Part shown: positions 5,501 through 26,251 of the stretch, in pieces
Layout: each line of letters starts with the position of its first letter
How positions within the stretch are numbered: the first letter of the stretch is position 1
DNA from: Hyphomonadaceae bacterium ML37
Lineage (GTDB): Bacteria > Pseudomonadota > Alphaproteobacteria > Caulobacterales > Maricaulaceae
Direction of reading: 5' to 3'
DNA: 64,000 nucleotides
Assembly (NCBI GenBank): GCA_027627685.1
Contig: CP091241.1
Span: forward strand, 2,790,396-2,854,395
Notes under the pieces: generated by a model
What the model saw: only the letters and a program-made list of their open reading frames with translations
Told to the model about the DNA's origin: nothing
The model's database searches: none
Position numbers and translations under genes: made by a program

Positions 5501-6276
5501 CACACGATCTCGCCTTCAGCCGCGATGATCTGCGCGGCGATTTCGGCGTCGCGCGGCGAATCCACCGACCAGGGCGTGCGCCCGCGATAATCGGTGAGCA
5601 CCACCCGGATCGGAATCCCGTTCTCCAGCGCGCGCAGCTGTTCCAGACTCTCGGCCAGCTCCAGCGGGCCCGGCTCCAGCGCCACCAGCCGCTCCAGCGC
5701 CGCGAAGCGGTAGGCGTAGAGCCCGATATGCTTGTAGATGCGCGCCGCCTCGCGGTCGCGGCGGAAGGGTATGATCGTCTTGGAGAAATACAGCGCGTTC
5801 ATGGCGTGATCGAACACCACGCTGGTGCCCCCCACCTCGCCGCGCGCCTTGGCCTCGGCGAGCTTTTCATAAGCCGTATCTGTCAGCGCCACAGCGGGGG
5901 TGGCCAGCTGCAGCGCGGGATCGGCCGCCATGGCGCCTGCGGCGGCCTCGATCACCCAGGGCGGGGTGAGCGGCGCATCGCCCTGAAGATTGACGATCAC
6001 GTCATCCGGCCTGGCGAAGCTCTTTACCGCCTCAAAGCATCGTTCGGTGCCGTTGCGGCAGGCCTCGGGCGTCATCACCGCCTCGCCGCCGAACCCGCGA
6101 ACGGCGTCGGCGATACGCTCATCATCCGTGGCGACCAGCACCCGGTCCACTGAGGCGGCGGAGGCAGCCAGCCGCCGCACCCGCTCCACCATCGGCACGC
6201 CCGCAATCGCGTGCAGCGGCTTGCCGGGAAAACGGGTGGAGCCATAGCGGGCAGGAATGACGGCGATCACGGACAT
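5500..6276 (-). CDS. kdsB: 3-deoxy-manno-octulosonate cytidylyltransferase
   Basis: Activates Kdo with CTP to CMP-Kdo for the inner core of lipopolysaccharide, in the cytoplasm. 258 residues, the usual family length. The N-terminal CTP-binding motif IPARYGSTRFPGKPL is at about residues 6-20. VATDDERI (about 60), NLQGDAPL (about 105) and the late SVDSPRD segment also match KdsB. The ATG at 6276 was preferred over an earlier in-frame codon since the protein then begins MSVIAVIPAR as in relatives. It heads an operon with the phosphatase and ligase-like genes. The second cytidylyltransferase in this window (24623-25327) is shorter and of the acylneuraminate type, so this is the housekeeping Kdo enzyme. 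Confidence 0.94.
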   Translation of the reverse strand: MSVIAVIPARYGSTRFPGKPLHAIAGVPMVERVRRLAASAASVDRVLVATDDERIADAVRGFGGEAVMTPEACRNGTERCFEAVKSFARPDDVIVNLQGDAPLTPPWVIEAAAGAMAADPALQLATPAVALTDTAYEKLAEAKARGEVGGTSVVFDHAMNALYFSKTIIPFRRDREAARIYKHIGLYAYRFAALERLVALEPGPLELAESLEQLRALENGIPIRVVLTDYRGRTPWSVDSPRDAEIAAQIIAAEGEIV

Positions 6277-13935: not shown

Positions 13936-14943
13936 CTAACGCCCCGCCAGGATCGCGTCCACCAGCACGCCCGCCCCATGACGCACCGGATCGGTCGCTG
14001 GCAGGCCGGTTTCGCGCCTGGCAGCTTCCAGCGCGGCTTCGGCGGCGTCGGGCGACAGCGCGCCCGTGTTGACGCTCACCGCCGCGGCGCGCACAGCCGG
14101 ATTATTGATGCGGGCTGCCGCGAGATGGGCTTCCAGCGTCGCGGTGAGGCTGGGCAAAGCTCGGTGGTGCATCCCGCGGATATGGGCGCGACCCGCCTCG
14201 TGGCACAGCACCAGCACATCGGGCTGGGCGCCGAGCACGAGGCCCAGCGTGACCTGACCGAAGAAGGGATGCAGCACGCTGGCCTGCCCCTCGATCACGT
14301 CCCAGTGGCCGTCAGCGTTGGCCGGGGCCAGCATCTCAACCGCTCCCGACACGAAATCGGCGGGGATCGCATCAATGGCGACCCCCTGCCCCGCGATCAG
14401 CACCCCGGTCTGACCGGTGGCGCGGAAAGTGGCGTTGAGGCCGCGCGCCCGCATCTCCTGCGCGACGGCCAGCGCCGTGTACTTTTTGCCGATATTGCAA
14501 TCGGTCCCGGCCATCAGCACGCGCTTGCCGGAGCGCTTCTCTCCCGTGCCCAGCTTGATGGGCGGACCCGACCAGTGGCGCACATCATGAAGCTGCCTGC
14601 CCAGCCGGTCTGCGGTCTCCTTGAGAACCGGGAACGAGCTCAGGCGCTGGTGCAGGCCGCTGGCGATGTCGAGCCCGGCTTCCAGCGCCTGGCGCAGCGG
14701 CTCGATCCAGCGCTCGGGCAGTATGCCGCCGCGATTGGCGATGCCGATGAGCACGGTGCGCGCGCCCGCCGCCACGGCCGCCTCGTAGTCCATGTCGGGA
14801 ATGCCCAGGTCCAGCTCGCAGCCGGGCAGACGGAATTGGCCCGCCACCTGTTCGGGGCGCCAGTACAGCACGCCCTGGGCGGTCTTCACACCGACTTCGC
14901 GGTCGGCATCGCCCAGAAACACCAGATAGGGCAGCGCGATCAT
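13936..14943 (-). CDS. dgcN: D-glutamate N-acetyltransferase DgcN (DUF1611)
   Basis: 335-residue DUF1611 protein. A P-loop-like MAGTDCNIGKKYTALAVAQEM is at about residues 140-160, with TGQTGVLIAG and SVLHPFFGQVTLGLVLGAQPDVLVLCH following, as in the family. DgcN acetylates D-glutamate, and DgcA, whose gene overlaps upstream, then converts the product to the L form. The ATG at 14943 overlaps the dgcA TGA (ATGA), which is good support for the pair. The start at 14970 was rejected for lack of alignment. The gene is convergent with the HTH gene, 11 bases apart. Name based on family plus neighbour. Confidence 0.85.
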   Translation of the reverse strand: MIALPYLVFLGDADREVGVKTAQGVLYWRPEQVAGQFRLPGCELDLGIPDMDYEAAVAAGARTVLIGIANRGGILPERWIEPLRQALEAGLDIASGLHQRLSSFPVLKETADRLGRQLHDVRHWSGPPIKLGTGEKRSGKRVLMAGTDCNIGKKYTALAVAQEMRARGLNATFRATGQTGVLIAGQGVAIDAIPADFVSGAVEMLAPANADGHWDVIEGQASVLHPFFGQVTLGLVLGAQPDVLVLCHEAGRAHIRGMHHRALPSLTATLEAHLAAARINNPAVRAAAVSVNTGALSPDAAEAALEAARRETGLPATDPVRHGAGVLVDAILAGR

Positions 14944-15950
14944 GACAATGTCTCTCCCATGCCGCCCCACACGCCGGCCGGCACTGGCGACAGCCGGCCC
15001 TGATCGTCCAGCGCCATCGGGGCGATGTCCTCAGCCAGCCAGACCGGCCCGTCCACATCCACGAAATCGGCGTCCTGGGCCAGGATCAGCGCCGGGGCGA
15101 TGGCCCGCACGCCGCAGATCATGCAGCCCACAAACACGCCCCTGCCCAGCGCCCGCAGGCGCGCGCGCATCTCCAGCCCATGGGTTAGCCCGCCGCACTT
15201 GTCGAGCTTGATATTGATGACGTCATAGCGCCTCGCCGCCCGGTCGAGCTCGGCCATGGATTGGCAGCTTTCATCGCCGCACAGCGGCAAGGGCGAGCGG
15301 AAATCGTCCAGCTGATTGTCCTGATCAGGCGGCAAAGGCTGTTCAAGCAGTTTGAAACCCAGCCCCGCGAGCTCATGGGCGTGGTGGGGCAAGTCCTCGC
15401 GCGTCCAGCCGCAATTGGCGTCGGCGATCAGCACCGCATCCGGCGCGCCCCGGCGTACGGCGGCGGCGCGCGCGCCGTCCAGCCCGTCACGCCGGCCGAG
15501 CTTGACCTTCAGGAGCGGCCGGTGCGCCGCGTCGCGCGCCTGCTCTTCCATGGCGTCCGGCGTGTCGAGCGAGATGGTGAAGGCGGTGACGACAGGATGG
15601 ATCGGGCCAGAAAGCCCGCACAGCGCGGCGACACTGGTGTCGGCCCGGCGCGCTTCCATATCCCACAACGCCGCATCCAGCGCCGCACGCGCGCCGCCCG
15701 GCGGCAGCAGACTCATGAGGCGCATGCGGTCGGCGCCCGCCTCGATCGCGCTGCGCACGCCCTCAATCTCCGACATCAGGGTCTGCGCGGTCTCGCCGCG
15801 ATAGCTCACCCCCACCGCTTCGCCATAGCCCACATCACTGCCCTGGCTGATGGTGACGGACACCGACGCCTGTTCGGTGCGCGCGCCGGTGGCGATCACG
15901 AAGGGCCGCTTCAGACGCCGGGTTATGATGCTGGCCTGCAGGTGGCGCAC
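14940..15950 (-). CDS. dgcA: N-acetyl-D-glutamate racemase DgcA (enolase superfamily)
   Basis: 336-residue muconate-cycloisomerase-type enolase-superfamily protein, formerly annotated as dipeptide epimerase. The catalytic Lys pair is in LLKVKLGRRD (about residue 146). Metal ligands follow in LIADANCGW, KLLEQPL and LCGDESC, and the second catalytic Lys is in INIKLDKCGG. Next to DUF1611 this form works as racemase for N-acetylated D-glutamate, letting the cell use D-Glu, for instance from peptidoglycan. The start is a GTG at 15950, the only codon giving the full N-terminal capping domain; AAAGGG lies about 12 bases upstream. A true dipeptide epimerase remains possible. Confidence 0.85.
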   Translation of the reverse strand: MRHLQASIITRRLKRPFVIATGARTEQASVSVTISQGSDVGYGEAVGVSYRGETAQTLMSEIEGVRSAIEAGADRMRLMSLLPPGGARAALDAALWDMEARRADTSVAALCGLSGPIHPVVTAFTISLDTPDAMEEQARDAAHRPLLKVKLGRRDGLDGARAAAVRRGAPDAVLIADANCGWTREDLPHHAHELAGLGFKLLEQPLPPDQDNQLDDFRSPLPLCGDESCQSMAELDRAARRYDVINIKLDKCGGLTHGLEMRARLRALGRGVFVGCMICGVRAIAPALILAQDADFVDVDGPVWLAEDIAPMALDDQGRLSPVPAGVWGGMGETLS

Positions 15951-16026: not shown

Positions 16027-17142
16027 TTACACGCTGGCGCGCACGGCCTTGGTCACCTGGTCCTGACGCTCCCCGGCCAGATAGGCGTCCATGGGCAGCG
16101 ACACGACGCGCGCCATGGCCCGCTCCGTCACGGGCAGGCCGCCCGGCGCCAACGGGCAGCGCTGATAGGGTTCCTGCACGTGCATGGGGACGGGGTAGTA
16201 CACCGCCGTGGGCACGCCCTTCTCGGCCAGCGCAGCGCGGAACTTGTCGCGGTCATCGACCTCGATCGTGTACTGCGCCCAGGTCGACACCCCGCCCTCA
16301 ATCACCACCGGCGTCTTCACCACGTCAGAGAGCGCGGCGGCATAAGCGTCGGCGGCGACGTTGCGGTGGATGATCTCGTCAGGGAAAATCTCCAGCTTTT
16401 CCAGGAGGATCGCCGCCTGGATCGTATCGAGGCGCGAGTTCAGACCGATGCGGTCATAGGCGTAGCGCTCGGCGCCCTGGCCATGATTGCGCAGCGAGGC
16501 GAACAGGGCGGCCAGTTCATCATCATTGGTCACCACCGCCCCGCCATCGCCATAACAGCCCAGCGGCTTGGCCGGGTAGAAGCTGATGGTCGCCACGTCC
16601 GCCCATCGGGCCGGGTGATAGTCATTGAGCGTGCAGCCAAAGCCTTGCGCGCTGTCGGAAATGAGCTTCAGCCCGTGGGCGCTGGTGATGGCGCTGAGCG
16701 CGGGATAGTCCGCCGCCTGGCCGAACAGATCCACAGCGATCACCGCGCGCGGGGTCAGCGCGCCTTCGCGTTTCACCGCATCAATGGCGCGCTCCAGGCT
16801 TGCCGGGTCCATGCAGTAGGTGTCGGGATCGATATCCACGAACACGGCTGTCCCGCCCGCCAGCGCAACCACTTCAGCGGTAGAGGCGAAGGTGAAGCTG
16901 GGCACGAACACCGCATCGCCCTTGCCGATCTTCCACGCCATCAACGGCAAAAGGATCGCATCGGTGCCATTGGCGCAGGTCAGGGCGTGGCGCGTCTCGC
17001 CAAACGCCTTGAGCCGGGCTTCCAGCTCGGTGACTTCGGGCCCCAGAATATATTTGCCCTCCTCGATCACCTTGGCGATGGCGGCGTCGAGCCGGTCCTG
17101 AATGCGGGCGCGCTGGGCGGCCAGATCAATAAAGGGAATCAT
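16027..17142 (-). CDS. DegT/DnrJ-family sugar aminotransferase (WbpE-like)
   Basis: 371-residue PLP enzyme of the DegT/DnrJ/EryC1/StrS family, which transfers an amino group to a keto sugar nucleotide. CANGTDAILLPLMA (about residue 55), VFVDIDPDTYCMDPASLE, LISDSAQGFG and the PLP lysine region SFYPAKPLGCYGDGGAVVTND (about 177-198) are all clear. The last segment is most like WbpE-type enzymes, which make 3-amino sugars, but related LegC enzymes share much of it. The start at 17142 is preferred over one 12 bases upstream, which leaves no room for its ribosome site. It lies 84 bases downstream of glmS on the same strand, so both may serve amino-sugar supply. Confidence 0.85.
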   Translation of the reverse strand: MIPFIDLAAQRARIQDRLDAAIAKVIEEGKYILGPEVTELEARLKAFGETRHALTCANGTDAILLPLMAWKIGKGDAVFVPSFTFASTAEVVALAGGTAVFVDIDPDTYCMDPASLERAIDAVKREGALTPRAVIAVDLFGQAADYPALSAITSAHGLKLISDSAQGFGCTLNDYHPARWADVATISFYPAKPLGCYGDGGAVVTNDDELAALFASLRNHGQGAERYAYDRIGLNSRLDTIQAAILLEKLEIFPDEIIHRNVAADAYAAALSDVVKTPVVIEGGVSTWAQYTIEVDDRDKFRAALAEKGVPTAVYYPVPMHVQEPYQRCPLAPGGLPVTERAMARVVSLPMDAYLAGERQDQVTKAVRASV

Positions 17143-17226
17143 GCGGGCGGTCATCCTGTTGCGAGGCGGGGCACGGCGGGGCGTATAGCCCCGCGCGCAC
17201 GAGCGCTTAAGTCACGTTTCATTGCC

Positions 17227-19053
17227 TTATTCGACAGTCACCGATTTGGCGAGGTTGCGCGGCTGGTCCACGTCCGTGCCCTTGTGCACCGCTGTAAGAT
17301 AGGCGATCAGCTGCACCGCCACGGCCATGACGATAGGCGTCGCCAGCCGGCCCGCAGCGGGCGTCACCAGCGTCAGCGCGCTCTGGTCAGCCAGCTCTGC
17401 TTCGCCTTGCGGATCGGTCACAGCGATCACCCGGGCGCCGCGGGCGCGCACCTGCTCGATGGAGGAGCGGGTCTTGTCGAACAAGACGTCCATGGGCGCC
17501 AGCACGATCACCGCCACGCCTTCTTCGATCAGCGCGATGGGGCCGTGCTTGAGCTCGCCGGCGGCATAGCCTTCAGCGTGGATATAGCTGATCTCCTTGA
17601 GCTTCAGCGCGCCTTCCAGCGCCAGCGGGAACAGGGAGTTGCGCCCCAGGAAGAGCACGATGTCGCTGCGGGCGAGATCCAGCGCGAGCGCGTCCACGCC
17701 CTGACGCAGGCTCAACGCCTCGCCCATCAGGCGCGGCGCGGCGGAGAGATCAGCGATGGCGCCCTGCACCGCCTTCGCATCCATGCGACCACGCTGGGCG
17801 CCCGCCGCGATGGACAGAGCCGCCAGCGCGGCGAGCTGACAGGTGAAGGCCTTGGTGGAGGCTACGCCGATCTCCGGCCCGGCCAGCGTCGGCAGCACGA
17901 TATCGGCCTCGCGCGCCATGGTGGAATGGGCGGTATTGGTCAGGGCGATGGTCACAAGCCCCGCCGCCTTGCACAAGCGCAGGGCTTCGAGCGTGTCGGC
18001 GGTCTCGCCTGACTGGGATATGAAAAGGGCTGCGTCGCCCGGTGAGAACGCCGGGTCGCGATAGCGGAACTCTGACGCGATATCGACTTCGGTGGGAAGC
18101 CCGGCGAGGCTTTCGAACCAGTAGCGCGCGACCATGCCAGCATAGGCCGCCGTGCCGCACGCCACGATCAGCAGCCGGTTCATGCCGGCGAAATTCACCG
18201 CGGCGGGCAGATTAACCGCGCCCTCGGCGAGATTGACGTAAGCGGCGATCGTGCGGCCGACGACTTCGGGCTGTTCGTGGATTTCCTTTTCCATGAAGTG
18301 GCGGAACGGACCCTTGTCCACGCGCCCGAACGCGCCAGGGCCGGCGGCCTGTTTGCGCTGGGCGGGGCGGCCCCGGGCATCGCGCACATCCGCCGCGCCC
18401 GGCCCCACTACCACCGTATCGCCGTCTTCCAGATAGATCAGCGTCGCCGCATCCTCTGGCAACGCCATGGCGTCCGAGGCGATATAGCCTGTGCCCGGCC
18501 CCAGCGCGGCCAGCAGGGGCGCAGCCTTGCGCGCGCCGAACACCAGACCCGGTGCGGTTTTGCTGACAGCGGCCAGCGCAAAGGCGCCCTGCAGCCGGTC
18601 GACCGCCGCGCGCCAGGCGTCATGGGGATCGCCGTGGGCGTCCAGCGCCGCGTCGAGCAGATGGGCGACGACTTCTGAATCGGTGTCGGAGAGAAACACC
18701 CGGCCCTCGCCCGCCAGTTCGGCCTTGAGCGCGGCATGGTTCTCGATAATGCCATTATGGACCAGCGCCACCCGTCCGGCGCGGTGGGGGTGGGCGTTGC
18801 GTTCTTCCGCCGCGCCATGGGTCGCCCAGCGCGTGTGGGCGATGCCGCTGAGGCCCGCCAGCCCGCCGCGCGCCGTCAGCTTGTCTGACAGCGCCGCGAC
18901 CTTGCCCGCAGCGCGTTCGACAGCGAGCCCGCCATCCGGGCCGGCGACGCACACGCCCGCCGAGTCATAGCCGCGATATTCCAGCCGGCGCAGGCCTTCC
19001 ACGAGCACGTCTGCCGCATCCGCCCGCCCCGACACACCGACAATGCCACACAT
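17227..19053 (-). CDS. glmS: Glutamine-fructose-6-phosphate aminotransferase
   Basis: Makes glucosamine-6-phosphate from fructose-6-phosphate and glutamine, the entry to UDP-GlcNAc. 608 residues, exactly the usual length. The N-terminal catalytic Cys follows the initiator Met in MCGIVGVSGR, so the ATG at 19053 is certain. An Ntn glutaminase domain (THTRWATHGAAEERNAHPH-type, here IAHTRWATHG, about 74-83) is followed by two SIS sugar-isomerase domains with ACGTAAYAG, SQSGETADTLEAL and ALEGALKLKEISYIHAEGYAAGELKHGP, and the normal C terminus LAKSVTVE. Its position between a sugar aminotransferase and glycosyltransferases suggests it also feeds glycan synthesis. glmU is not in the window. Confidence 0.96.
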   Translation of the reverse strand: MCGIVGVSGRADAADVLVEGLRRLEYRGYDSAGVCVAGPDGGLAVERAAGKVAALSDKLTARGGLAGLSGIAHTRWATHGAAEERNAHPHRAGRVALVHNGIIENHAALKAELAGEGRVFLSDTDSEVVAHLLDAALDAHGDPHDAWRAAVDRLQGAFALAAVSKTAPGLVFGARKAAPLLAALGPGTGYIASDAMALPEDAATLIYLEDGDTVVVGPGAADVRDARGRPAQRKQAAGPGAFGRVDKGPFRHFMEKEIHEQPEVVGRTIAAYVNLAEGAVNLPAAVNFAGMNRLLIVACGTAAYAGMVARYWFESLAGLPTEVDIASEFRYRDPAFSPGDAALFISQSGETADTLEALRLCKAAGLVTIALTNTAHSTMAREADIVLPTLAGPEIGVASTKAFTCQLAALAALSIAAGAQRGRMDAKAVQGAIADLSAAPRLMGEALSLRQGVDALALDLARSDIVLFLGRNSLFPLALEGALKLKEISYIHAEGYAAGELKHGPIALIEEGVAVIVLAPMDVLFDKTRSSIEQVRARGARVIAVTDPQGEAELADQSALTLVTPAAGRLATPIVMAVAVQLIAYLTAVHKGTDVDQPRNLAKSVTVE

Positions 19054-19207
19054 TGAAAACGCCTCCCGCAGCGGTCCGGACCCGGACCGGTTATAGTCAG
19101 CCCTGCACGCCGGGCGCCAGAGACCCCGCATCGACAAATCATTTCAGTTCATGACATGAGGAAGCTCGACATTGCACCGCGGCGCACCCCCGCCTAGAAC
19201 GCGAATC

Positions 19208-19972
19208 ATGACCGCCTCCGGCCCGGACCCGATTGACACCGCCGCGCGCTTCGCCATCGCCATGCCGGTGGGGGCGTGGCATCCGCTGTTGCCGGCTGCT
19301 CTCGACAGCGTGGCGCGGCAGGACACAGGCGTCGAGATCGCCTTTCTGGATGCGTCAGGCGATGGGCGCGTCGCCGCCGCGGCGGACGCTAGCGAGCTTG
19401 AGTTCGCCTACCGGCGCACCGGGCCGGACGCAGGCCAGGCCGCCGCCATCGCGGAAGGATGGGCGCACACGCGCGCGCCGATCCTGGGCTGGCTGAATGC
19501 GGACGATCTGCTGGTTCCCGGCGCCCTCGCCGCCGTGTCGCAAGCCTTTGACGCTGATCCTGACACCGGCGTCGTGCATGGCGGATCGGACTTCATCGAC
19601 GAAACCGGGCGCGTCATCGGCGTGCACGACCATGTGGATGAAGCCGGACCGCTGCTCTACCGCTCCAATTTGATCTCCCAGCCCTCATGCTTTGTGCGCC
19701 GCGCCATTGTGGAGGCGGCTGGCGGAATTGATGAATCGCTGGTCTACACCATGGACTGGGAGCTCTGGGTGCGTCTGTACGCCGCCGGGGTCCGGTTCGC
19801 GCGCATCGACCGGACGCTGTCACACGTCTACATGGGGTCAGGAACTAAAACGGCCGACATCAGTGCGCGCCGCCTCACCGAAATCGCCCGGCTGGTACAT
19901 CGTCATGCCGGACTGTGGAACGCCGTCAAATCAACCGCATCCTTCGCCTTGCACCCCATCCGGAGCCGCTGA
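19208..19972 (+). CDS. Family 2 glycosyltransferase
   Basis: 254-residue GT-A-fold glycosyltransferase. AIAMPVGAWHPLLPAALDSVARQ near the start gives the nucleotide-binding strand, and the metal-binding motif is NADDLL (about residue 98) in the form ILGWLNADD. The acceptor-side MDWELWVRL (about 181-189) carries the usual ED/EL pattern. FIDETGRV and SLVYTMD are typical of rhamnosyl- and galactosyl-type GT2. It is shorter than the next gene and lacks the DUF115 part. Its last base overlaps the start of the GT2-DUF115 gene (TGATG). Donor sugar unknown. It is divergent from glmS across 154 bases. Confidence 0.82.
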   Translation: MTASGPDPIDTAARFAIAMPVGAWHPLLPAALDSVARQDTGVEIAFLDASGDGRVAAAADASELEFAYRRTGPDAGQAAAIAEGWAHTRAPILGWLNADDLLVPGALAAVSQAFDADPDTGVVHGGSDFIDETGRVIGVHDHVDEAGPLLYRSNLISQPSCFVRRAIVEAAGGIDESLVYTMDWELWVRLYAAGVRFARIDRTLSHVYMGSGTKTADISARRLTEIARLVHRHAGLWNAVKSTASFALHPIRSR

Positions 19973-22098
19973 TGTCCGCCGCCGCGACACGCCCCCGCTT
20001 CTCCATCGTGACGCCGAACTGGAATGGACGGGCTTATCTGCGCCCCTGCCTGGATTCAGTGCTGGAGCAAAATTATCCGGAGCTGGAATACATCGTCGTG
20101 GACGGGGCGAGCACGGATGGGTCCCGGCTGCTCATAGAGGAATACCGCGACCGGCTCTCCACCATTATCTGCGAGCCCGATAACGGGCATGCCGATGCGC
20201 TGAACAAGGGCTTCGCCGCGTCCACCGGCGAGCTGATGGGCTGGATCAACTCCGATGATGTGATCCTGCCCGGCACGCTGTCCTTTGTCGCGCGGCTGTT
20301 TGAAATGCGGCCCGATATCGAATGGATCACCGGGCGCCCCTCCAGTATGAATTCCGACGGCGTGATCGAGTGGATGGGGCAGACAAGGCCCTGGTCGCGC
20401 CTGCGATTCCTGGCCGGCGACAATCAGTGGATCCAGCAGGAATCCACCTTCTGGCGGCGCAGCCTGTGGGAGCGCGCCGGCAGCCGTCTGGATACGGACT
20501 TTCGCCTGGCCAACGATTTCGAGCTGTGGTGCCGATTCTTCCGGCATGCGGAGCTTCATACAGTCGACCGGCATCTGGGCTGCTTCCGGGTCCGGCCCGG
20601 CCAACGGTCCATTGTCTTCAAGACGCGTTATGAGAGCGAGGCAAAGGATGTTCTGGCCCGCGAGCTGGACGCGGTGGAGCCGACTTTCCGCGACGCTTTC
20701 GGCGCTTTCTTGCCGGACGCACCAGTCACGCTGGATGACGAGACGCGGCTGGCGCGCAATGCCGAGCTGTCGGCCTGCGATCCGCCGATCATCCGCCCGG
20801 CCAGCCTGAACCCGCGCGGGCGCAGCTCGCGCACCGCCCCCCTCGACACCCGCGCCTTCGACGGCGCGCTGGAGCGTGCGCGCGCGCCCAGCCTGCTGGA
20901 GCGCTTCGCCGGGGTTCATACCGGGCAGCGTTGCTTCATCATGGGCAATGGCCCGTCGCTGAACCGGACCGATCTGGAGCTGCTGGAAGGCGAAACGGTC
21001 TTCGCGTGCAATTCCGCCTTCCTCCTGTTTGACCGGATCAACTGGCGCCCGACCTATTACACCTGTGTGGATTCGCGCGTGCTGCCGGATCGCGCCGGCG
21101 ACATCCAGGCGATGCTGGCGCAAAATCCGTCCATAACAGCCTTCTTTCCCGCCGAGGTGCAGGAGCATGTGGGGGAGAAGCGGCGCTACCCCACACGCGC
21201 GATCCTGCCCTCGGCGCGCAACCGCTTCTATTTCCGCGAAGCCTACGGCACTCTGGAGAACCTGCCCGAGTCCATGTTCTCCCCCGATATCGACCAGCAT
21301 GTGATACAGCCGCGCACCGTCACGATCACCATGCTGCAGATCGCCGCTTATATGGGCTTTTCGGAGATTTACCTGATCGGCTGCGACACGCGCTACACAG
21401 TGCCCGCGACCGTCGATGAGGAAGATGGCGAGGGCCTGGCGCTGGTCTCGACGCGCGACGATGACGCCAATCATTTCGATCCGGCCTATTTCGGCAAGGG
21501 CCGCAAATGGCATGCCCCAAAAGTCGAGCTGATGGTGGAGCACTACCGCATCGCCCGCGATGCACTGGAGGCGCGCGGCATTAAAGTGTTCGACGCCACA
21601 GTCGACGGCGCGCTGGACGTATTTGACAAGGTTGAGTTCAGCGCGCTGTTCGATCCGGACGCTCAGGTCATCATCAAGGCGCGCGCCGCCGCCGCCCCGG
21701 CGGCCGATCAGGCGGCCGGGCCGCGCGGCATGGACGCCTTGATCAACCGGGCGCCCGCGTCCTTTCGCCAGCCTCTCCTGTCGCTGTGGCGCAATCGCCG
21801 CTTCGCCGCCGCGGTACTGGTGATGACGGCCATCGGAGCGGTCGTGGTGGCGAGCCCGCCCGTTGAACCCTTCCGCCTGTGGATATGGCCGCTGGCCCTG
21901 TTTGCCGCCGGGTTTATCTTCACCGGCGCCGTGGCGATCAAATCGCGCCGGCTGCTGATGGAAGCGCACCGGCAGCTGGCGGACCTGCACCGGCGCGAAG
22001 CATCACGTGAGCTGCGCTATATCGAACTGGATTCCCAGCTGGAGGATGCGCGCGCACGGCTAGAAGAGCTGGAAGCTGACCGTCCGGATACGGACTAG
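19972..22098 (+). CDS. GT2 - DUF115 (MptE-like) - membrane - coiled-coil fusion
   Basis: 708-residue fusion. Residues about 5-230 are a GT2 domain (SIVTPNWNGRAYLRPCLDSV; WINSDDVILPG carries the metal motif; LANDFELWCRF the ED-like motif). Residues about 315-560 match the DUF115/6-hydroxymethylpterin-kinase-MptE-like domain seen in Maf flagellin glycosyltransferases: CFIMGNGPSLNRTDLELL, FACNSAFLLFD, then YLIGCDTRY and VELMVEHYRIARDALEARGIKVFDAT. About 611-656 hold two membrane helices, and about 670-708 a charged coiled coil (ASRELRYIELDSQLEDARARLEELEAD). The start is an ATG whose A is the last base of the upstream stop. The joint presence suggests transfer of a sugar, perhaps a sialic-acid-like one, to a surface protein or glycan. 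Confidence 0.8.
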   Translation: MSAAATRPRFSIVTPNWNGRAYLRPCLDSVLEQNYPELEYIVVDGASTDGSRLLIEEYRDRLSTIICEPDNGHADALNKGFAASTGELMGWINSDDVILPGTLSFVARLFEMRPDIEWITGRPSSMNSDGVIEWMGQTRPWSRLRFLAGDNQWIQQESTFWRRSLWERAGSRLDTDFRLANDFELWCRFFRHAELHTVDRHLGCFRVRPGQRSIVFKTRYESEAKDVLARELDAVEPTFRDAFGAFLPDAPVTLDDETRLARNAELSACDPPIIRPASLNPRGRSSRTAPLDTRAFDGALERARAPSLLERFAGVHTGQRCFIMGNGPSLNRTDLELLEGETVFACNSAFLLFDRINWRPTYYTCVDSRVLPDRAGDIQAMLAQNPSITAFFPAEVQEHVGEKRRYPTRAILPSARNRFYFREAYGTLENLPESMFSPDIDQHVIQPRTVTITMLQIAAYMGFSEIYLIGCDTRYTVPATVDEEDGEGLALVSTRDDDANHFDPAYFGKGRKWHAPKVELMVEHYRIARDALEARGIKVFDATVDGALDVFDKVEFSALFDPDAQVIIKARAAAAPAADQAAGPRGMDALINRAPASFRQPLLSLWRNRRFAAAVLVMTAIGAVVVASPPVEPFRLWIWPLALFAAGFIFTGAVAIKSRRLLMEAHRQLADLHRREASRELRYIELDSQLEDARARLEELEADRPDTD

Positions 22099-22940
22099 GC
22101 TTCGCTCAGCCCAATCCTGAACAGCCCGCCCGCCAGCGCCTGACCCTCCAGGCCGATGGAGGCCGAGGTGACATAGATGTCGCCGTCTGCGAAGGCGAGG
22201 CTGGTGGGGCGCGCCACCGGCATCTCGATGCGGGCCATGAGCACGCCGTCCGGGTCATACCGGTCGATCCGCCAGCCGTCCCAGAACGCAATCCAGAGAC
22301 AGCCGTCCGCATCGGTCTCCATACCGTCCGGATAGCCATCGCCGTCCCCGAACTGCGCGAAGACCCGCTTGTTGGAGAAGCCCGAGCCGCCGCCGTCCAG
22401 ATCAGCGATAAACACGGTCTGGCGCGCAGAATCCGTGAGATAGGCCCGCCCGCGCGCCGCATCGAAGGCCGGACCATTGGTGACGCGGTAGCCCGTTTCC
22501 AGACATCGCGACGTCCCGTCCGGATCGAGCCGCCACCACGCGCCGGATGCGATAGCTTCAGCATCATCCATGGTCCCGGCCCAGAAACTGCCGTCCGGGG
22601 CGCGCTTGCCGTCATTGAAGCGATTGCCGGGCGTCGCGGCCTCGGGCTGACAGACCGGCTCCACCTCAATGGCTCCGCCATCCGAGGGCAGAGTCAGCCG
22701 GGCGAAGCCCGATTTCATGGCCGCGAGCAGCCGCCCGTCAGGCTCGATCAGGAATGAGCCCACCGGTTCCGGCGCGGGCCAGCTGGTCTTGTGGCCGCCC
22801 GCCGGCTCATACCGGTGCAGCGCGGGCGCCTTGATATCGGTCCACCAGAGCGCCTGCCCGTCCCAGACCGGGCCCTCGCCCAGAATGGCCCGGGCGTCCC
22901 ACACGCACTCAGGCGTCCCGATCCGCAGCCCAGCGCTCAT
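22095..22940 (-). CDS. SMP-30/gluconolactonase-family lactonase
   Basis: 281-residue six-bladed beta-propeller of the SMP-30 family, which hydrolyses aldonolactones such as glucono-, xylono- or arabinonolactone using a divalent metal. Family markers are ILGEGPVWD (Glu ligand, about residue 21), RFNDGKRAPDGSFWAGTMDD (Asn and Asp ligands, about 107-126), RVTNGPAFD and GYPDGMETDADGCLWIAFWDG (Asp ligand, about 204-224). Last gene of the five-gene operon starting at 26251; its ATG overlaps the SDR stop (ATGA). Its stop overlaps the stop of the convergent fusion gene in a CTAG. Within this operon a lactone opened after SDR oxidation is the natural substrate; that is inference. Confidence 0.86.
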   Translation of the reverse strand: MSAGLRIGTPECVWDARAILGEGPVWDGQALWWTDIKAPALHRYEPAGGHKTSWPAPEPVGSFLIEPDGRLLAAMKSGFARLTLPSDGGAIEVEPVCQPEAATPGNRFNDGKRAPDGSFWAGTMDDAEAIASGAWWRLDPDGTSRCLETGYRVTNGPAFDAARGRAYLTDSARQTVFIADLDGGGSGFSNKRVFAQFGDGDGYPDGMETDADGCLWIAFWDGWRIDRYDPDGVLMARIEMPVARPTSLAFADGDIYVTSASIGLEGQALAGGLFRIGLSEA

Positions 22941-23674
22941 ACCGGATCATGCAGGCGCGACAGCACGCCCCCGTCGAGCCAGAAGGTCGTGCCCGTTGCG
23001 AACGCAGCTGCAGGCGAGGCGAGAAACACTGCCACCTGCGCCGCCTCTTCCGGGGCGCCAATGCGATTGAGGGGGTGGCAGGCTTCCAGCTCCTGGAACG
23101 CTTCCTCGCGCCCCTCGAACCCGGCCATCAGCATGGGGGTGGCGATGGCGGCGGGCGCCAGGCAGGTGACGCGCACCCGCGCACCCAGATCCACCGCCAG
23201 CGCCCGCGTCAGGCCATGCAGCGCCGCTTTGGACGTGGCGTAGGCGGCAAATTCCGGCTTGGTCGCCTGGGCGTGCACGCTGCCAATATTGATCACGCAG
23301 CCGCGCGCGGCCTCGAGCTCGGGCAGGAAGGTCTGCACCAGGCGGAAGGGCGCGGTGAGATTGACGTTCATAGTGCGCCGCCAGGCGTCCATGGACAGCG
23401 TGTCCACTGGCGCGAGGATCTGTGCGGCGGCGTTATTGACCAGCACCGTCAGCTGCGCACCGTCCAGCGCGCCGCGCACGGCATGCGCGAACGTCTCCAG
23501 CGCGGCGCCGTCCTCGGCGATGCGGTTGAGGTCGGCCTCCACGAAGGCGTCGCATACATCGCCCTCAGCGGGCGTGCGCCCGGTGCCGATCACGCGGTAA
23601 CCCGCGGCCCTGAACGCTGCGCCCAGCGCGGTTCCGATCCCGCCCGAAATCCCGGTGACGAGCGCGGCCTGCAT
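22937..23674 (-). CDS. Short-chain dehydrogenase/reductase
   Basis: 245-residue classical SDR. The cofactor site is TGISGGIG (residues 8-15), followed by NNAA (about 84) and the catalytic Ser in INIGSVHAQ (about 133) with Tyr and Lys in YATSKAALHG (about 146-155). APAAIATPML is the usual loop after the active site. Related enzymes oxidise aldoses such as xylose or glucose at C1, or act on sugar nucleotides; NAD or NADP preference cannot be seen. It lies between the hydroxyacid dehydrogenase and the lactonase genes, with one-base and four-base overlaps. Joint operation with the lactonase is likely. Confidence 0.85.
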   Translation of the reverse strand: MQAALVTGISGGIGTALGAAFRAAGYRVIGTGRTPAEGDVCDAFVEADLNRIAEDGAALETFAHAVRGALDGAQLTVLVNNAAAQILAPVDTLSMDAWRRTMNVNLTAPFRLVQTFLPELEAARGCVINIGSVHAQATKPEFAAYATSKAALHGLTRALAVDLGARVRVTCLAPAAIATPMLMAGFEGREEAFQELEACHPLNRIGAPEEAAQVAVFLASPAAAFATGTTFWLDGGVLSRLHDPV

Positions 23675-24618
23675 CAGCCGCCAGCCTGCTTGACGCCCAG
23701 GAAGTCGAACATGTGGCCAATGGCCTGCAGGCTGACCCGGCGCACCGCGTCCTCGGTATTGGAGGCGTTGTGCGAGCCGAATATGCAGCGGTCATAGGTG
23801 CGCAGCACATTGTCCGGGGCCAGCGGTTCGATCTCGAACACGTCCAGCGCCGCCGAGTGAATGCGCCCTGATTCCAGACCCGCCAGCAGGGCGGTTTCCT
23901 TGACCACCGGCCCGCGGCCCACATTAACGATGCGCACGCCCGGCTTCACCCGCGCCAGCATATCCTCGTTGAACATATGGCGGGTGTGGGCGTTGAGCGG
24001 AGCGGTGAAGACCAGGAAGTCGCACGCCTCCACGCCCTCGGGCCAGGGCTTGTTCTCCACCTGGTGGCCCTCCAGCGGGCGGAAGGCGGGATCATAGGCG
24101 ATGATGTGCATCTCGGCGGCCAGAAGGCGCAGGGCGGTGTTGCGGCCGATATCGCCAAACCCGATCACGCCGGCTGTGCGTCCGGCCAGCGAAATGCCGC
24201 GCGGCTTGGGCCAGGTCTTGTTGAGGCGGATTTCCCGGTCGATGTAATAGCTCTCGCGCGCCAGCCCGTTGACATAGTTGACCGCCAGATCGGCGACCTC
24301 GCGCCCGAACACGCCCGGCGTGTTCACTGCGGGCAGGTTGAGACGCTTGGCGGCGGCGAAGTCCACATTGTCGACGCCCACACCCCATTTCACGATGGCT
24401 TTGAGATTGCCCGCCGCGCCGGCTTCCAGCACGCGGGCGCTGGCCGGGTCATCGCCAATAATCCAGCCGTCAAAGCCGGGCAGGAGGGCGATCAGCTCGT
24501 CCTCTGACAGGGTCTGGACGACCTTGGGCGCCTCCAACTCGACACCGCTTTTGGCGAAGACCGGACGAAACTCATCAATCATGCCCAGCATGGGCGGGCA
24601 GGTGACCAGAACGCGCAT
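23674..24618 (-). CDS. D-isomer 2-hydroxyacid dehydrogenase
   Basis: 314-residue NAD(P)-dependent dehydrogenase. The Rossmann fold has VIGFGDIGRNTALRLL at about residue 150. The catalytic triad is visible: Arg in VNVGRGPVV (about 235), Glu in DVFEIEPL (about 266) and His in FGSHNASNT (about 287), the last replacing the usual TPHIGG. No ACT domain, and it ends soon after the catalytic domain, unlike the SerA at 2372-3595. It should oxidise or reduce a 2-hydroxy/2-keto acid, so a sugar-acid substrate fits the operon. The ATG at 24618 was chosen over one 24 bases upstream because GGAAG is 8 to 12 bases before it and the upstream gene ends four bases away. Confidence 0.86.
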   Translation of the reverse strand: MRVLVTCPPMLGMIDEFRPVFAKSGVELEAPKVVQTLSEDELIALLPGFDGWIIGDDPASARVLEAGAAGNLKAIVKWGVGVDNVDFAAAKRLNLPAVNTPGVFGREVADLAVNYVNGLARESYYIDREIRLNKTWPKPRGISLAGRTAGVIGFGDIGRNTALRLLAAEMHIIAYDPAFRPLEGHQVENKPWPEGVEACDFLVFTAPLNAHTRHMFNEDMLARVKPGVRIVNVGRGPVVKETALLAGLESGRIHSAALDVFEIEPLAPDNVLRTYDRCIFGSHNASNTEDAVRRVSLQAIGHMFDFLGVKQAGG

Positions 24619-24622
24619 GAGC

Positions 24623-25327
24623 TCAGCTTCCTTTGCGGGCATTGTACAGCGCGACCGCCTCGGCCTGCGCCCACTGGTCGGCGTCGTCGATATCGATGGA
24701 TTCCAGCGCCGGCGTCACATACATGGCTGGCCGCTTGCCGATGCGGGCGCTGGTGGCCGCAAAGCTCTCCCGGTTGAACAGGTAGAGATTGGAGTTTTCC
24801 TCATACCAGGGCTCAAGATCCTGGGTCCGGATCAGATTGTCCGGATCATGGTTCACCGGGGTCATGTCCTCGCGGTAGAAGCGGGTCTGGATGCGGTTCA
24901 CCGCAAACAGGCTGTCGGCCTCGCCCGCCGCCTTCGTCGCATGATACTTGGCCAGCGCGCCGCGCATGGCGTCGGCCGACAGGAGCGGATTGGTGGTGTG
25001 GGTCATCAGATACGTGTCGGCGTCCACATTGGCGACATCATCGCCCAGCACCAGATTCATCGAGACGAAGTCGCCGCAAATCTCCGGCTTGCGGTCGCGG
25101 ATCATCACCCGGCCGCCGCCATCGCCGTCATTGAGGCCCTTGTCCGACAGAATCTCGCGCGCATCGGTGTTGATCACCACGCGGTCGATCTCCTCCATGC
25201 TCAGCAGGGTGTCGAGAATCCAGCGAAACAGCGGCTTGCCCGCGAACTCGCGGAAATTCTTGGAGGTGACGCGCGCCGAGTGCGCCTTCATCGGCAGAAG
25301 GGCGACCAGCTTGAAACGGTCCGGCAT
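24623..25327 (-). CDS. Acylneuraminate-type CMP-sugar synthetase
   Basis: 234-residue cytidylyltransferase of the CMP-sialic/CMP-ulosonate type. The CTP-binding start is VALLPMKAHSARVTSKNFREFAGKPLF (about residues 7-33; the consensus is IPARxGSKRxPxKN), DRVVINTDA (about 48) and later LMTHTTNPLLSADAMRGAL (about 100) follow. It is neither KdsB nor GlmU-like. KxLF and THTTNPL are characteristic of NeuA/LegF-like synthetases, though here the ARGGSK loop is altered to KAHSARVTSK. It sits second in the operon after the GT2 gene, with AGGAG upstream. The 2-keto sugar it activates is unknown and no NeuB-like synthase is nearby. Confidence 0.8.
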   Translation of the reverse strand: MPDRFKLVALLPMKAHSARVTSKNFREFAGKPLFRWILDTLLSMEEIDRVVINTDAREILSDKGLNDGDGGGRVMIRDRKPEICGDFVSMNLVLGDDVANVDADTYLMTHTTNPLLSADAMRGALAKYHATKAAGEADSLFAVNRIQTRFYREDMTPVNHDPDNLIRTQDLEPWYEENSNLYLFNRESFAATSARIGKRPAMYVTPALESIDIDDADQWAQAEAVALYNARKGS

Positions 25328-25366
25328 GGGAAAGGCTCCTGATTGAATGGCGCCGCCTGACGCGGG

Positions 25367-26251
25367 TCAGCGCGGGTAGAAATACCGGTCCTTGCGATCC
25401 TGCGACAGCTTGCGGTGATTATTGTTGCCCTGATAGCTGCCCCAGTACTGGTTGAAGCGGAACAGGATGACTCCCCCCGCCTCCTTCCAGAACACGCGCT
25501 GAGTGAGCGCCTCGCCCAGATCATGGAAGACGCCCGACATCGTGTAGCGCAGGAAATCGCCAAAGCTGACATGCACTTCCGGCATGATGTCCTGCAGGGC
25601 CACGGCCTCGCGCTCATAGCGCGTCTTGACCTTGGACCAGCTCTCTTCGTGGATGTGGATCACCGACGCCTCGGCGACATAGCCGATTTTCATGCCTTCC
25701 GACACGAGCTGCTTGGCCAGCACCATGTCTTCCAGCCCGGTCACCGTCTCGTCGAAAGGGCGGGTTTCCCAAACCGATTTGAGGATGGCCGAGTTGGCGT
25801 TGTTGCAGAAGAAATCATCCTGCGGGACGTTCGACGTCTCCGGAAAGTATTTACGGAACAGCTGCTCCTCGGAAAATTTGGTCAAACCCGGCTTGCCCTG
25901 CTGGCGTCCGTAGACATAGGCGCAAGTCCCGTCATCGAGCGGCTTGACCAGATCATGCAGCCAGCGCGCGCCCACCGGGATGCAATGGCCCGAAATGAAC
26001 ACCAGAAACCGCCCCTGCGCCGCCTCGCACCCGACATTGAGGGACCGGCCGAAGGTGAAGTCGGATTTCTTGATATGGGTGATCCGGCAGCCATGGGCTT
26101 CCGCGATCTTCAGCGTGTCGTCGGTGGAGCCGGAATCCACGATCACGACTTCATAGCTGTAGGGCGCCGCGTCTTGCGCCGCGACCGCCTGAAGCGCCTC
26201 ACCCAGCCATTTGCCCTCATTATAGGTGCGAATGACGATGGATGCGTCCAT
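25367..26251 (-). CDS. Family 2 glycosyltransferase, first gene of the CMP-sugar operon
   Basis: 294-residue GT2 enzyme. SIVIRTYNEGKWLGEALQAV (about residues 4-23) and VVIVDSGSTDDTLKIAEAHG (about 35-54) are the nucleotide-binding strands; the metal site is atypical, HCIPVGA at the place where DXD is usual. The acceptor motif is TGLEDMVLAKQL (about 169-180). A longer tail, residues 220-294, contains SFGDFLRYTMSGVFHDLG and ends in a basic run (NNNHRKLSQDRKDRYF). The ATG at 26251 has a strong GGGGGG-AGA site about 10 bases upstream, consistent with it being the first gene. It is presumed to transfer the sugar made by the rest of the operon. Confidence 0.82.
   Translation of the reverse strand: MDASIVIRTYNEGKWLGEALQAVAAQDAAPYSYEVVIVDSGSTDDTLKIAEAHGCRITHIKKSDFTFGRSLNVGCEAAQGRFLVFISGHCIPVGARWLHDLVKPLDDGTCAYVYGRQQGKPGLTKFSEEQLFRKYFPETSNVPQDDFFCNNANSAILKSVWETRPFDETVTGLEDMVLAKQLVSEGMKIGYVAEASVIHIHEESWSKVKTRYEREAVALQDIMPEVHVSFGDFLRYTMSGVFHDLGEALTQRVFWKEAGGVILFRFNQYWGSYQGNNNHRKLSQDRKDRYFYPR

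Follow-up and report, generated by a model that had tools for sequence, protein, structure and literature searches.

In this study, we examined a 64,000-nucleotide stretch of the Hyphomonadaceae bacterium ML37 genome (contig CP091241.1, positions 2,790,396 to 2,854,395; the window) and, within it, a five-gene operon on the minus strand. We consider it reasonably likely that this operon makes and uses a cytidine monophosphate (CMP)-activated 2-keto sugar acid and needs no phosphoenolpyruvate (PEP)-condensing synthase to do so; the acid would most probably be a C5 or C6 2-ulosonate. The five genes have the order and coordinates given in an initial annotation of the DNA, the Pfam families agree with it, and each protein scores above its family cut-off. 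In transcription order, and followed by a convergent neighbour, they are:

25367-26251, minus strand: GT2 glycosyltransferase, a candidate transferase (PF00535, 83.5 bits)
24623-25327, minus strand: predicted CMP-ulosonate-type synthetase of its own subfamily (PF02348, 54 bits, cut-off 22.6)
23674-24642, minus strand: D-2-hydroxyacid dehydrogenase of the nicotinamide adenine dinucleotide (NAD) type, the proposed aldonate 2-dehydrogenase (PF02826 and PF00389)
22937-23674, minus strand: short-chain dehydrogenase/reductase (SDR), the proposed aldose 1-dehydrogenase (PF13561)
22095-22940, minus strand: SMP-30 family protein, the proposed aldonolactonase (PF08450, 243 bits)
19915-22098, plus strand: convergent neighbour with GT2 and PF01973 domains, a second candidate transferase (PF00535 and PF01973)

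Taking the longest open reading frames, the junctions from GT2 to SMP-30 are a 39-base gap and then overlaps of 20, 1 and 4 bases. The gap is as initially annotated, whereas a separation of four bases, also given there, fits if the dehydrogenase starts at residue 9, a methionine. The same five genes stand in the same order in seven other loci (L007, L010, L012, L013, L048, L062 and L064) and the synthetase-dehydrogenase pair recurs across phyla, which argues that the operon is more than a chance arrangement.

For comparison we used 80 loci, the best 80 of 109 confirmed relatives ranked by likeness to the window synthetase, from Pseudomonadota, Verrucomicrobiota, Cyanobacteriota and Nitrospirota, with one metagenome-assembled genome (MAG) each from Bacteroidota and Myxococcota. 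Genes on either strand were counted as neighbours if they lay no more than 4 kb from the synthetase; the 58 loci whose sequence extends 4 kb or more in both directions form a full-flank subset. Near the synthetase we found the dehydrogenase in 71 of the 80 loci (52 of the 58), the module-type SDR in 47 (36), a metallo-beta-lactamase-fold hydrolase in 19 (12), SMP-30 in 14 (11) and an HpcH/HpaI aldolase in four (four). GT2, present in 68 (49), is a constant neighbour. NeuB-like genes occur in two of the 80 loci (L063 and L070), each accompanied by a PseF-like gene. Protein distances of synthetase, dehydrogenase, GT2 and SDR correlate (r 0.42-0.67 over 41 loci; 0 of 1000 permutations), so these four core proteins tend to travel together, with shared ancestry adding to the correlation. 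Within Alphaproteobacteria the module is patchy, since a synthetase match at 1e-50 was found in five of 289 genomes, two of them (including the window genome) beyond 1e-100. The scanned neighbours include polysaccharide genes (Wzy, FkbM, NKWYS, sulfotransferase). Pairs of SDR and SMP-30 are typical of xylose and galactose catabolism, and L014 carries such a set; that the dehydrogenase, SDR and SMP-30 oxidise sugars for catabolism and stand next to a glycan synthetase by accident is nevertheless highly improbable given the gene order kept across phyla, the polysaccharide genes and the correlated distances of the core proteins. A chance or catabolic neighbourhood was rejected on this conservation of gene order and neighbours.

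The operon synthetase is predicted, from profiles and a structural model, to be a CMP-ulosonate-type enzyme in a subfamily of its own. It reaches 67.7 bits against the PseF model, whose cut-off is 205.7, and is thus not a PseF member; besides PseF, no NCBIfam model matched at 1e-10. Among solved structures, NeuA enzymes come nearest to it by profile (E 2e-14), and a fold search with its predicted structure (predicted local distance difference test score, pLDDT, 87.5) placed synthetases of CMP-Kdn (E 1e-15), CMP-Neu5Ac and CMP-Pse closest, with KdsB ranking lower. Lys23, Asp212 and Asp214, which we take to belong to the nucleotide and metal motifs, are conserved in 81, 80 and 80 of 82 rows. By fold and profile the cytidine triphosphate (CTP)-dependent synthetase is therefore like those of the CMP-nonulosonate pathways (NeuB-NeuA, PseI-PseF, LegI-LegF); the module differs from them in having no condensing synthase, with oxidoreductases and a lactonase in its place. 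It likewise resembles the 3-deoxy-D-manno-octulosonate (Kdo) pathway (KdsA-KdsC-KdsB) in that its presumed product is a CMP-activated 2-keto acid, but it has no KdsA partner, and the fold search ranks KdsB structures below those of NeuA and PseF.

To our knowledge, all CMP-ulosonates of known biosynthesis (Kdo, Neu, Leg, Pse, Kdn) take their keto-acid end from PEP condensation, which makes NeuB and KdsA the natural genome markers for acidic ulosonate glycans. The initial annotation saw neither enzyme, and this is true of the operon; the genome, a single contig of 3.04 Mb, has one NeuB, beside another synthetase, and one match to the 3-deoxy-D-arabino-heptulosonate 7-phosphate (DAHP) synthase/KdsA family. 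The NeuB gene shares a row (L002 7005-10336) with a PF02348 synthetase and two other genes, which by sequence and position we identify as probable PseG and PseH; together with the PseB and PseC described below, these would complete a pseudaminate gene set. At window positions 5614-6267, a high-scoring PF02348 match (163 bits) is a candidate KdsB, and a fourth PF02348 match falls below cut-off. With NeuB paired to its own synthetase and a candidate KdsB present, the operon synthetase would be a third one without a condensing partner.

Two neighbouring genes at window positions 16027-19137 encode a DegT aminotransferase, which reaches 199 bits with the PseC model (cut-off 423.5), and a GlmS-like protein. 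The initial annotation had offered, as an alternative, a legionaminate-like route drawing on this pair. The low DegT score does not bear it out, and we rejected such a route as unlikely, as PseB (465 bits) and PseC (447 bits) lie elsewhere in the genome, both over cut-off, and NeuB sits in a Pse-type row. GlmS is listed in only one of the 80 loci, L007, there with DegT; since the pair is met again beside the module only there, we did not count it as part of the module.

The search for condensing synthases was extended to 50 of the 80 locus genomes for NeuB and to 32 of these for KdsA, namely the 29 without a clear NeuB and three cyanobacteria. No NeuB match was found in 24 of the 50 genomes bearing a close synthetase relative. 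NeuB exceeds the Pfam cut-off in the other 26, clearly in 21 (E 1e-63 or better) and as weak partial matches of 26-51 bits in five (G023, G028, G038, G042 and G046). In each of these five, the gene concerned also gives a weak, overlapping match to the KdsA model and is probably a DAHP synthase. NeuB, whose constant presence would have spoken against the proposal of the initial annotation, is thus not always alongside the module. In four draft genomes among the 29 we found neither a credible NeuB nor a credible KdsA: G005 (L013, Sphingomonadales EhC05) and G009 (L020, Altericroceibacterium) gave no KdsA match, and G023 (L045, Richelia) and G046 (L076, an Aphanocapsa MAG) gave weak ones only. 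In all four, the sole PF02348 match above 36 bits (57-65) is, by contig position, the module synthetase. Independence of the module from PEP-condensing synthases is well supported. A scheme in which a KdsA or NeuB encoded elsewhere supplies a conventional Kdo or nonulosonate, the module synthetase activates it and the oxidoreductases modify the sugar would account for the NeuB and KdsA-family genes of the window genome, for KdsA over cut-off in 24 of the 29 genomes without clear NeuB and for kdsB and kdsA in the L088 cluster; in view of the four draft genomes and of a window-genome NeuB that adjoins its own synthetase, we think it very unlikely. In one further genome, G021, a 253-bit KdsA match lies in two adjacent pieces and resembles a split KdsA.

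In the route that we favour, the SDR would oxidise an aldose at C1 to a lactone and SMP-30 would open this to an aldonate. The dehydrogenase would then oxidise C2, giving a 2-ketoaldonate that closes into a ring, and the synthetase would join it with CTP to form a CMP-2-ketoaldonate, pulling the unfavourable oxidation forward. GT2, the sialyltransferase-like neighbour or both would finally transfer the residue to a surface polysaccharide. We infer the individual reactions, the way in which they run and the nature of the sugar. In the window, SDR, SMP-30 and dehydrogenase belong to the right families for sugar oxidation, with presumed catalytic residues intact. The best NCBIfam model for the SDR is glucose 1-dehydrogenase (161 bits, under the cut-off of 215), and its nearest relative in the PDB is also a glucose 1-dehydrogenase (3vtz, E 2e-34); N105, S132, Y145 and K149, which we assume to be catalytic, are kept in 47 of 47 rows. 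In SMP-30, the presumably catalytic E22, N155 and D205 are kept in 18 of 18.

Consistent with the initial annotation, which tied SDR and SMP-30 to sugar oxidation, an SDR is found in 22 of 23 full-flank loci with a lactonase candidate and in 16 of 35 without one (Fisher P 6e-5, an optimistic value since the loci are related). The exception, L050, has a module SDR elsewhere in its genome. Stand-in SDRs likewise resemble an aldose dehydrogenase: six of the seven scanned match D-xylose 1-dehydrogenase best (NF053674, 253-280 bits, under the cut-off of 400). They occupy the same slot in L033 and L035, lie adjacent and divergent in L046, and are about 4-8 kb away in L071, L014 and L088. For the L046 protein, the nearest named PDB relative, after two generically named entries, is sulfoquinovose 1-dehydrogenase. 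An SDR of L055, a 124-residue stretch ended by the contig edge and without a model match, was discarded as a swap. In the Caulobacter oxidative pentose pathway (XylB-XylC) and in sulfoquinovose oxidation, SDR and SMP-30 family proteins act as aldose 1-dehydrogenase and lactonase, as is proposed here; the module differs in that its product would be activated with CTP for a glycan and not degraded. The stand-in SDRs match XylB best, whereas the window SDR is of another subfamily, and the window genome has no XylB match at 1e-60.

The lactonase position also appears to be exchangeable. No locus has both SMP-30 and the unrelated metallo-beta-lactamase-fold protein inside the 4 kb limit (0 of 80 loci, P 0.015; 0 of 58, P 0.059). 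In L039, L072 and L079, SMP-30 lies 1.75-1.8 kb upstream, directly before GT2, and the metallo-beta-lactamase-fold protein takes that same place in L066, L068 and L074. L039 belongs to a clade (97/92) whose seven other lactonase-bearing members have the metallo-beta-lactamase-fold protein. An HxHxDH motif is found in 17 of 19 of these proteins, and we infer that they may act as lactonases. Exchanges of lactonase, SDR and keto-acid maker fit what an oxidative route predicts.

In the dehydrogenase, R243 and E272 are each conserved in 70 and H291 in 69 of 72 rows, and the other rows have gaps there; we take these residues to be catalytic. Asp184 at the nucleotide site (69 of 70 letters) suggests NAD+ as cofactor, which would favour the oxidation direction. 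Its nearest solved relatives are phosphoglycerate dehydrogenases. This fits a scheme in which the enzyme turns glycerate into hydroxypyruvate or its phosphate, an aldolase elsewhere builds the ulosonate, and SDR and lactonase serve another step; a more distant synthetase relative, L089, even has aldolase, synthetase, dehydrogenase and HAD phosphatase genes in a row. We regard this scheme as quite unlikely, for aldolase and dehydrogenase occur together within 4 kb in none of the 58 close-family loci and the lactonases and aldose-dehydrogenase-like SDRs would be left unexplained.

A sister version of the module may use an aldolase. In L031, L053, L070 and L083, an HpcH/HpaI aldolase is present with no dehydrogenase, SDR or lactonase candidate within 4 kb, and the mutual exclusion of aldolase and dehydrogenase has a P value of 3.5e-5. 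A DUF386/YhcH gene is found in L031 and L070, and a HAD phosphatase in L031. For Escherichia coli YhcH, N-acetylneuraminate anomerase activity has been reported (PMC8141875). Among other more distant synthetase relatives, L090 and L095 have the dehydrogenase and L093 has HAD phosphatase and aldolase genes. Aldolase, HAD phosphatase and synthetase genes stand side by side in L089 (8201-11362), L093 (7443-9668) and L031 (9496-12181), a set that looks like a counterpart of KdsA-KdsC-KdsB; KdsC is a HAD phosphatase, so the sister version shares this feature with the Kdo pathway.

The nearest named models of the HpcH/HpaI aldolases, which replace dehydrogenase and SDR in the four loci, make 2-keto-3-deoxy acids. 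The activated sugar might accordingly be a 3-deoxy-2-ketoaldonate resembling 2-keto-3-deoxygluconate, formed when an enzyme from outside the module dehydrates the aldonate or, where the aldolase is present, from pyruvate and an aldehyde, with the hydroxyacid dehydrogenase acting on another position or acid. All CMP-ulosonates known to us are 3-deoxy compounds, and in L014 the surroundings of SMP-30 and SDR include genes for an IlvD/EDD dehydratase and a member of the 2-keto-3-deoxygalactonokinase family. That set lies 5-9 kb off and may be catabolic, however, the conserved module contains no dehydratase, and the dehydrogenase would lack a clear role; we hold a 3-deoxy sugar to be unlikely.

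Several observations weigh against an oxidative, PEP-independent route. The common ancestry of the loci weakens all counts and P values, and the aldolase-dehydrogenase exclusion may reflect a single event, as the four loci and L043 form one clade (97/89). The presence of KdsA in most genomes without clear NeuB and the relationship of the dehydrogenase to phosphoglycerate dehydrogenases, both described above, count here as well, and no dehydratase or sugar-specific gene in the module fixes the substrate. An Asp present in 39 of 47 SDR rows is missing from the window SDR. Any SDR is lacking within 4 kb in 20 of the 58 full-flank loci, and the module SDR is absent genome-wide (1e-50) from 15 of 16 searched genomes whose locus lacks it, so the dehydrogenase must often obtain its substrate otherwise. 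An SDR like xylose dehydrogenase (1e-60) exists in 10 of 50 genomes, over cut-off in three that also have the module SDR. Among Rhodobacterales and Stappiaceae genomes without module SDR it is found in five of seven (G024, where it lies beside the module, G029, G033, G040 and G045; absent from G043 and G049), but the Hyphomonas- and Parvularcula-type genomes G014, G017, G048 and G050 have none at 1e-60. Taken alone, the mutual exclusion of the two lactonase candidates is weak. The metallo-beta-lactamase-fold protein bears only a remote likeness to UlaG and resembles other hydrolases just as much: in the PDB, that of L066 matched an uncharacterised hydrolase, an N-acyl-phosphatidylethanolamine-hydrolysing phospholipase D and the UlaG lactonase about equally, and in NCBIfam the sole models that the two scanned proteins matched, all below their cut-offs, were those for UPF0173-type hydrolases and UlaG (UlaG 61-63 bits against a curated 306).

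Two candidates could perform the transfer. GT2 has only distant PDB relatives (best E 9e-10). For the PF01973-type domain at 19915-22098, its own profile found similar domains somewhere in the stretch analysed for 53 of the 80 loci; PF01973 was matched by 48 of 50 rows tested, comprising the window and 49 of the 53 loci (L010, L059, L064 and L078 were left out as redundant or short). By profile the domain resembles the sialyltransferase CstII (E 9e-11) and weakly Maf (0.008). In a fold search with its predicted model (pLDDT 84.8), Maf ranked highest (E 3e-4, TM about 0.5), ahead of a human sialyltransferase and an archaeal pterin kinase. Its likeness is thus to GT42 sialyltransferases by profile and to Maf flagellin glycosyltransferases by fold, but unlike these it is fused to GT2; archaeal MptE/HPPK pterin kinases, of the same Pfam family, are also matched. 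A near-invariant histidine (H205) aligns near, not clearly on, what we take to be the CstII base. PF01973 is not a widespread family: it is present in 41 of the 50 module genomes (1-4 matches each) and absent from nine; among 14 controls only four archaea have it. The initial annotation had GT2 transfer the sugar, and GT2 is indeed kept; it mentioned neither the neighbour resembling CMP-sugar transferases nor the exchange of parts.

The oxidative idea of that annotation is supported by those of its tests that sequence allowed, and the chemistry that it proposes is putative; its account had left out that the dehydrogenase is near-constant and that the SDR/lactonase pair is often absent. We see a slightly better than even chance that the module represents a PEP-independent CMP-ulosonate route across six phyla, making an undescribed class of C5/C6 2-ketoaldonic sugars, with a sister version using the HpcH/HpaI aldolase and, in some loci, a phosphatase or anomerase-family protein. 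The literature searched, which covered few subscription journals, yielded no description of the module. If this reading is true, it would be a new way of making a bacterial surface-sugar building block, a class of acidic surface sugars would have been overlooked, GT2 or Maf-like enzymes would use a new donor, and genes in glycan clusters that are now labelled phosphoglycerate dehydrogenase, SDR or gluconolactonase would gain a defined role.

Some individual loci deserve mention. On Thalassovita gelatinovora plasmid pAge77 (L088 1-10628), kdsB, kdsA, the xylose-dehydrogenase-like SDR, SMP-30 and an MptE-like gene are followed by GT2, synthetase and dehydrogenase, so that the module is also plasmid-borne. 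At L080 (8999-16708), GT2 and synthetase genes that lack a dehydrogenase partner are found next to genes for MotB, flagellar hook, FlgK and flagellin-like proteins, which may point to a role in flagellin glycosylation in that locus. Unrelated genes interrupt the module in two loci: in L023 (10766-11380) a HEPN-domain gene separates synthetase and dehydrogenase, and in L044 (3625-4671) a gene for a YhcG-type nuclease separates the dehydrogenase from the SDR. In Richelia sinica (G023:C19:61841-63150), another match to the module-type SDR, interrupted by a single in-frame TGA, lies beside a PF01973 gene and is perhaps the remains of a second module. Elsewhere in the window, at 13936-15950, two genes are close to DgcN and DgcA of D-glutamate metabolism, slightly short of the curated cut-offs (465 of 480 and 368.5 of 400 bits).

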